Below, in pieces: positions 39,920-40,939 of a DNA stretch of 64,000 nt. Position 1 is the first letter of the stretch. Each line of letters begins with the position of its first letter. Made by a program: the position numbers and the translations under genes. Under the pieces are notes generated by a model. That model did no database searches and had not been told where the DNA came from. It saw nothing but the letters and a program-made list of their open reading frames with translations. Source of the stretch: an uncultured Porphyromonadaceae bacterium (lineage in GTDB: Bacteria > Bacteroidota > Bacteroidia > Bacteroidales > Muribaculaceae); NCBI GenBank assembly GCA_947178215.1, contig CAMWXJ010000011.1, positions 30,316 to 94,315 on the forward strand, in the 5' to 3' direction.

Positions 39920-40582
39920 TTAGAGGAAGTCGTTGGCTACTATGGGAAGTATGTCGACGGGGTTATATATAATGTGGTCGGCGTGGTTGTCGCGCAGCTC
40001 GCTTACGGGGCGGAAGCCCCACGTTACGCCCACCGACTCTATACAGGCGCGCCGCGCCGTCTCCATATCCACACCCGAGTCACCCACATAAAGGGTCTCG
40101 GCCTTTGGTGTCGGGTGGGCCGAGAGTATGTTGAACACTATCGACGGGTCGGGCTTGGAGGGCACACCCTCCTGATGTCCGAACGCGGCAACCCACTTCA
40201 CGTCGGGGAAAAAGATGCCCATGAGCTTTGTCACCGCATCCTGGTACTTGTTGGAGGCGACGGCCAAGGCCACGCCGCGCTCATGCAGCGCTGCAAGCAG
40301 CTCAACGACGCCGGGATAAGGGCGTGTGAAGTCGGCGAGATGCTCGTCGTAGTAATCATGAAACACACTGCGTATGCGTTCGAGGGTGGATTTGTTGCGA
40401 TGCTCCTCGGGGAGGGCACGCTCAAGCAGACGGCTCACTCCGTTGCCCACCATCATAGGGTAGGCTTCGAGGGGATGAGTGGGAAACCCCTCGACCGCCA
40501 GGGCGTGGTTGGTAGCGTTGCCCAGGTCGTCGATGGTGTTGAGCAGAGTGCCGTCGAGGTCAAAGATTACAAGCTTTTTCAT
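39920..40582 (-). CDS. HAD family hydrolase, phosphoglycolate phosphatase-like
   Basis: MKKLVIFDLDGTLLNTIDDL, VASNK, KPDPSIVFNIL, YVGDSGVDMETARRA; TATATTTG box on minus at 40588-40595. Confidence 0.92.
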   Translation of the reverse strand: MKKLVIFDLDGTLLNTIDDLGNATNHALAVEGFPTHPLEAYPMMVGNGVSRLLERALPEEHRNKSTLERIRSVFHDYYDEHLADFTRPYPGVVELLAALHERGVALAVASNKYQDAVTKLMGIFFPDVKWVAAFGHQEGVPSKPDPSIVFNILSAHPTPKAETLYVGDSGVDMETARRACIESVGVTWGFRPVSELRDNHADHIIYNPVDILPIVANDFL

Positions 40583-40631
40583 CAGCGCAAATATAAACAT
40601 TTCCCTTCACACTTCACCATTCAGCGGGAAT

Positions 40632-40797
40632 AAAAAAAGCCCGGCGATATACCACCGGGCCGAGATTGCGTAGTTGCGTAGAAGGAGGAAATCATGATTC
40701 TGAATCCTACGCAGGATTTTGCGTGACTTGACGGAAAAAGGCTAATGCGATAGCTGTCAGCTCACTGACTTCGTCACCTTGCGGCAGCCTTATCCGC
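40632..40797 (-). ncRNA. Putative structured small RNA gene (about 165 nt), family unidentified
   Basis: Promoter TTTG / 20 bp / TAACTTTG on minus, no ORF, outer stem 40732-40743 with 40786-40796, 3' terminator GCCCGG...CCGGGC plus U7. Confidence 0.65.
40639..40660 (-). terminator. Intrinsic terminator of the putative sRNA
   Basis: Minus strand GCCCGGTGGTATATCGCCGGGC followed by TTTTTTTA. Confidence 0.85.
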
Positions 40798-40800
40798 TTG

Positions 40801-40832
40801 CAAAGTTAACACTTTAATTTCACTTCCACAAA
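40801..40832 (-). promoter_or_regulatory. Bacteroidetes promoter of the putative sRNA
   Basis: Minus strand TTTG (40832-40829), 20-bp spacer, TAACTTTG (40808-40801). Confidence 0.75.
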
Positions 40833-40915
40833 TACAGCCGTGCGTTCACCCATAAAATTGCCGCCACGGGCAACCGGGAAAGCCTGCAACCATACTGTTG
40901 TCAACCACAAAAAAA

Positions 40916-40939
40916 GCTCTGAACCACATGGTTCAGAGC
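40916..40939 (-). terminator. Intrinsic terminator of the second SusCD operon (minus)
   Basis: GCTCTGAACC-ATGT-GGTTCAGAGC on minus, followed by TTTTTTT. Confidence 0.85.

Follow-up and report, generated by a model that had tools for sequence, protein, structure and literature searches.

We analysed a window of 64,000 nucleotides of DNA from an uncultured Porphyromonadaceae bacterium (GTDB family Muribaculaceae) and found on its minus strand, between a HAD hydrolase gene and a SusC/SusD/DUF5018-related operon, a short unit consisting of a promoter sequence and a terminator sequence with no usable ORF between them. The unit matched no known RNA family and was present on two contigs of apparently one species. 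Our preferred reading, to which we give slightly better than even chances, is that it is a species-restricted, stand-alone small RNA gene whose product most likely works through base pairing in trans. From its anatomy we infer the following course of events. RNA polymerase carrying the primary sigma factor of Bacteroidetes would start at about position 40798 on the minus strand (range 40800-40795) and would stop at the intrinsic terminator near 40632 (range 40638-40632), giving an RNA of about 165 nt in which a 5' multibranch domain is followed by a middle hairpin and then the terminator hairpin (Table 1). The CCUCCUU/AUCAUGAUU apical loop of the middle hairpin would then pair in trans with the ribosome-binding region of a target, cover it and block its translation.

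Table 1 Features of the small RNA locus and its surroundings (positions in the window)
Feature	Coordinates	Strand	Details
Bacteroidetes primary-sigma promoter	40801..40832	-	TTTG (40832-40829), 20-bp spacer, TAACTTTG (40808-40801)
Small RNA gene (very probable)	40630..40798	-	Promoter/terminator anatomy; no called gene between; identical in a second strain-level contig
5' domain (predicted)	40731..40797	-	Outer stem CGGA/UCCG plus AAGGCU/AGCCUU closing a multibranch loop; fold z -1.84 alone
Middle hairpin (predicted)	40676..40713	-	Apical palindrome AAUCAUGAUU (40699-40690) plus CCUCCUU (40688-40682); fold z -2.0 alone
Intrinsic terminator	40632..40661	-	9-bp GC-rich stem plus U7; GCCCGG-N10-CCGGGC, T7 ending at 40632
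Terminator of the upstream SusC/SusD/DUF5018-related operon	40909..40939	-	AGCTCTGAACC-ATGT-GGTTCAGAGCT plus T run
Probable separate promoter core (TATATTTG) of the HAD hydrolase gene	40588..40595	-	By sequence; HAD ATG at 40582

A preliminary description of the locus had proposed the minus-strand promoter, the GCCCGG-type terminator with its run of U, and isolation of the unit by a terminator of the upstream operon. The promoter was recovered base for base, and both terminators were found where they had been placed. To assess the promoter, the genome sample (2.498 of 2.547 Mb, with 1928 genes called by a purpose-built simple hexamer gene finder) was scanned for the full motif TTTG-N18-22-TANNTTTG. 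It gave 201 matches, 182 of which were wholly intergenic as compared with 22 expected by area, and for 145 of the 201 a gene on the same strand began no more than 300 nt downstream; the reversed pattern, used as a control, gave 14 matches and only 2 intergenic ones. The extended core GTTAACTTTGC occurred seven times in the genome, in every case closely preceding a gene or RNA start on the same strand. Among the 30 tRNA/tmRNA genes of the genome, 14 were preceded by the full motif and 27 by the core, and the promoter region of the locus resembled tRNA-gene promoters in two relatives, with 86-88% likeness along some 35 nt. The promoter of the unit is well above chance.

The earlier claim that some 165 nt lack a convincing ORF also held: the sole ATG of the RNA leads into a frame that is still open beyond the terminator, and frames that start with GTG and close within the RNA reach at most 6 codons. 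The unit shows two features expected of an independent intergenic Bacteroidetes sRNA gene, a consensus promoter of its own and a Rho-independent terminator of its own with no ORF before it. Only nine units running from a full promoter to a terminator without a called gene were present in 2.5 Mb: three solitary tRNA genes, one uncalled small protein gene, one trp-leader-like unit, three others and the unit described here. Since its promoter is above chance and it is one of only nine such units, three of them solitary tRNA genes, it is very probably a stand-alone RNA gene, and its independence and isolation from both neighbours are well supported.

None of the 4227 Rfam families reached its gathering threshold in the window, the best sub-threshold matches sitting on the terminator, and ARAGORN found no tRNA or tmRNA there. 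The preliminary description had considered a 6S RNA, a known Bacteroidales candidate family or something new. The Bacteroidales-1 (6S) RNA, RF01693, was found elsewhere in this genome (G000:C22:18368-18568, 110.7 bits), the tmRNA lies on contig C13, and RF00013 gave only 12.9 bits away from the locus, with nothing above noise. The Bacteroidales-1 RNA is similar in length to the predicted transcript and it, too, has a TTAACTTTGC promoter core immediately in front of it, but it is a separate gene and its covariance model had no match at our locus; the first two suggestions are excluded as far as these tests allow. The third stood with regard to the lack of a known family, but the RNA is new only as a species-restricted orphan.

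BLASTN against 34 genomes of the genus yielded only short chance matches, nearly all inside protein genes. A single-sequence covariance model was searched in samples, partly overlapping, of 397 family, 394 order and 398 phylum genomes, and a model of the 5' domain only in the family sample. These searches returned one real match, in contig G124:C96, with an identical RNA; its 2758-base locus (L072, G124:C96:1-2758) shared 99.6% identity with the window, neighbouring genes included, suggesting that this contig likely comes from the same species and was mis-binned into a genome of another genus. All 12 differences between the two loci fall outside the RNA; with only ~0.7 to be expected in 169 nt, this says nothing about selection. 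Neither the 34 genomes of the genus nor the family, order and phylum samples yielded a homologue from outside the species. Nor did the genomes searched show conservation with compensatory changes, for which the preliminary description had asked. The plasmid and phage collections gave no match. The remaining covariance-model matches were weak: by eye, L073-L078 were terminators or other sequence; L226 was likewise weak; those of the order sample (L081-L083) had E values of 0.01-0.045 per genome; and the best of the phylum sample had an E value of 1.9e-4 for one genome, i.e., ~0.08 over 398, compatible with chance. Two candidate likenesses were rejected: 16 nt of non-coding sequence that matched ahead of tRNA-Trp in genome G008 (L042) were absent before this genome's own tRNA-Trp, and the palindromic repeat in L076 that ACGCAAAATCCTGCGT resembles was not found in this genome.

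The predicted fold of the whole RNA (-53.7 kcal/mol) was mildly better than those of shuffled sequences, mainly because of the terminator: the z score was -2.39 with it and -1.12 without it, when 24 of 200 shuffles folded equally well. The outer stem of the preliminary description (CGGAU/AAGGCU at 40796-40786 with AGCCUU-UU-UCCG at 40743-40732) is present, and the multibranch loop that it closes would carry the hairpins GCC-GCAA-GGU and GUCAG-UGAG-CUGAC. The case for the term structured, applied to this RNA from the start, is weaker than was implied; a structured RNA is plausible, not demonstrated.

Accessibility was predicted to be highest in two linkers and around the apex of the middle hairpin. 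This apical sequence reads AAUCAUGAUUUCCUCCUU, the complement of AAGGAGG-AAAUC-AUG-AUU, a complete ribosome-binding site with Shine-Dalgarno sequence and AUG, and the CCUCCUU/AUCAUGAUU loop is the best seed candidate. Against 1921 start regions the loop gave a best duplex of -25.3 kcal/mol, as compared with -22.4 +/- 1.4 for shuffled loops (12 shuffles, minimum -24.8), an excess of about 2 sd on 12 shuffles that emerged after three segments had been examined; the linkers stood out from their own shuffles less than the loop, or not at all. Base pairing at a ribosome-binding site would be the most likely mode of action. Strong Shine-Dalgarno sequences were found in 24 of the 1921 start regions, among them that of rpsR (bS18, recognised by sequence), before which a strong Shine-Dalgarno has been reported for Bacteroidales; in Bacteroidia ribosomes the anti-Shine-Dalgarno is sequestered by bS21, bS18 and bS6 (PMC9976891). 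The predicted pairing with the rpsR start region comprises 7 + 8 bp at -20.3 kcal/mol and was matched by 2% of shuffles that kept CCUCCUU. The CCUCC match is generic, however, and three genes score above rpsR, including RND-efflux-like and chromate-transporter-like ones (judged by sequence); moreover, rpsR was picked after the fact and is a choice without conservation. We treat rpsR as a lead only and a weak candidate target. That the RNA is a specific translational regulator of rpsR, occluding its Shine-Dalgarno and AUG, is a highly improbable special case of our preferred reading, and we would place just as low the idea of a Bacteroidales sRNA whose anti-Shine-Dalgarno-like loop specifically controls a few strong-Shine-Dalgarno mRNAs, e.g. 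rpsR, where ribosomes hide their own anti-Shine-Dalgarno.

Other explanations were weighed as well. A real promoter and a real terminator in fast-evolving intergenic DNA could produce a neutral, functionless transcript, in keeping with the restriction to one species among the genomes searched and with a non-terminator fold near the shuffled mean; we consider this rather unlikely in view of the strong consensus promoter of tRNA-gene type, the two individually stable predicted hairpins, and the terminators that separate the unit on both sides. The unit might instead be a 5' leader whose conditional terminator, as part of a riboswitch or attenuator, governs the downstream HAD hydrolase and DUF4492/cytochrome bd genes, given that it lies directly upstream of the HAD gene on the same strand with its terminator 50 nt before the ATG. 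This is improbable: behind that terminator the HAD gene probably has a promoter core of its own, TATATTTG, and so does not require the RNA for a leader, and in the relatives examined the same gene stands behind other genes, often surface-antigen-like, with no such RNA there. We also saw no leader peptide, no evident antiterminator and no riboswitch match in the unit. As to a divergent form of 6S RNA or some other housekeeping RNA, the size, the strong stable-RNA-like promoter and the long outer stem would suit it, but the genome already holds its Bacteroidales-1 and tmRNA genes (see above), our RNA is without an Rfam match, and its predicted structure falls into three distinct domains instead of forming a single long rod with a bubble at its centre, which leaves very little probability for it.

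The preferred reading, a trans-acting small RNA, has parallels in known systems. C/U-rich sRNA loops that pair with Shine-Dalgarno sequences occur, for example, in RNAIII and RsaE of Staphylococcus and RepG of Helicobacter; the RNA described here also has a predicted CCUCC hairpin loop that could cover a ribosome-binding site. With so small a share of strong-Shine-Dalgarno mRNAs in this genome, such targets would be few. If the loop does target mRNAs of this kind, it would bear on why a few Bacteroidales genes retain such sites. With the intergenic sRNAs of B. thetaiotaomicron (GibS, MasB/BTnc201 and other BTnc) the predicted RNA shares an independent promoter with -33/-7 boxes, an intrinsic terminator, a length of 100-200 nt, a position between operons and often narrow conservation (PMC7366714, PMC10994844). 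It differs from them in having neither an Rfam match nor a match in the order genomes sampled, and from GibS, which has a single-stranded 5' region, in its predicted closed 5' stem. Species-restricted small RNAs are common: 27 of the 49 high-confidence intergenic sRNAs of B. thetaiotaomicron, those having a Rho-independent terminator as well as a start site, are strain-specific (PMC7366714), and 135 intergenic sRNAs are now listed for that species (PMC10994844). A species-restricted sRNA here is therefore an ordinary discovery and not a new kind of RNA. It adds a well-delimited sRNA candidate without an Rfam match, and a strict Bacteroidetes promoter combined with a terminator makes for an efficient listing of stand-alone RNA genes in such genomes.

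Some minor observations concern the opposite strand and the rest of the genome. On the plus strand of the window, at 40670-40700, the side opposite the loop is a perfect Shine-Dalgarno plus ATG opening a 10-codon ORF, for which no promoter was seen. Separately, short ORF starts that are near-identical to one another (GTTGGTCGAGGAGGCG, then ATG/TTG CGTCAGGC) recur at four places, G000:C5:2929, C5:5442, C6:111779 and C12:7885. Outside the window, at G000:C2:70102-70519 (minus strand; L098), a small ORF that had not been called as a gene follows a promoter; the peptide it encodes is hydrophobic at its N-terminus, contains a Gly-Gly motif, is rich in Cys towards the C-terminus and looks, by eye, bacteriocin- or RiPP-like. 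The promoter-terminator units without a called gene at G000:C13:85923-86122 (plus strand), G000:C9:49835-49956 and G000:C23:11351-11434 (both minus strand) are possible sRNAs or uncalled small genes. At G000:C35:10688-10921 (plus strand; L215), a plus-strand gene is preceded by a promoter, then a short ORF containing adjacent Trp codons, then a strong terminator, and the Trp-Trp peptide makes this a probable trp-type attenuator leader.
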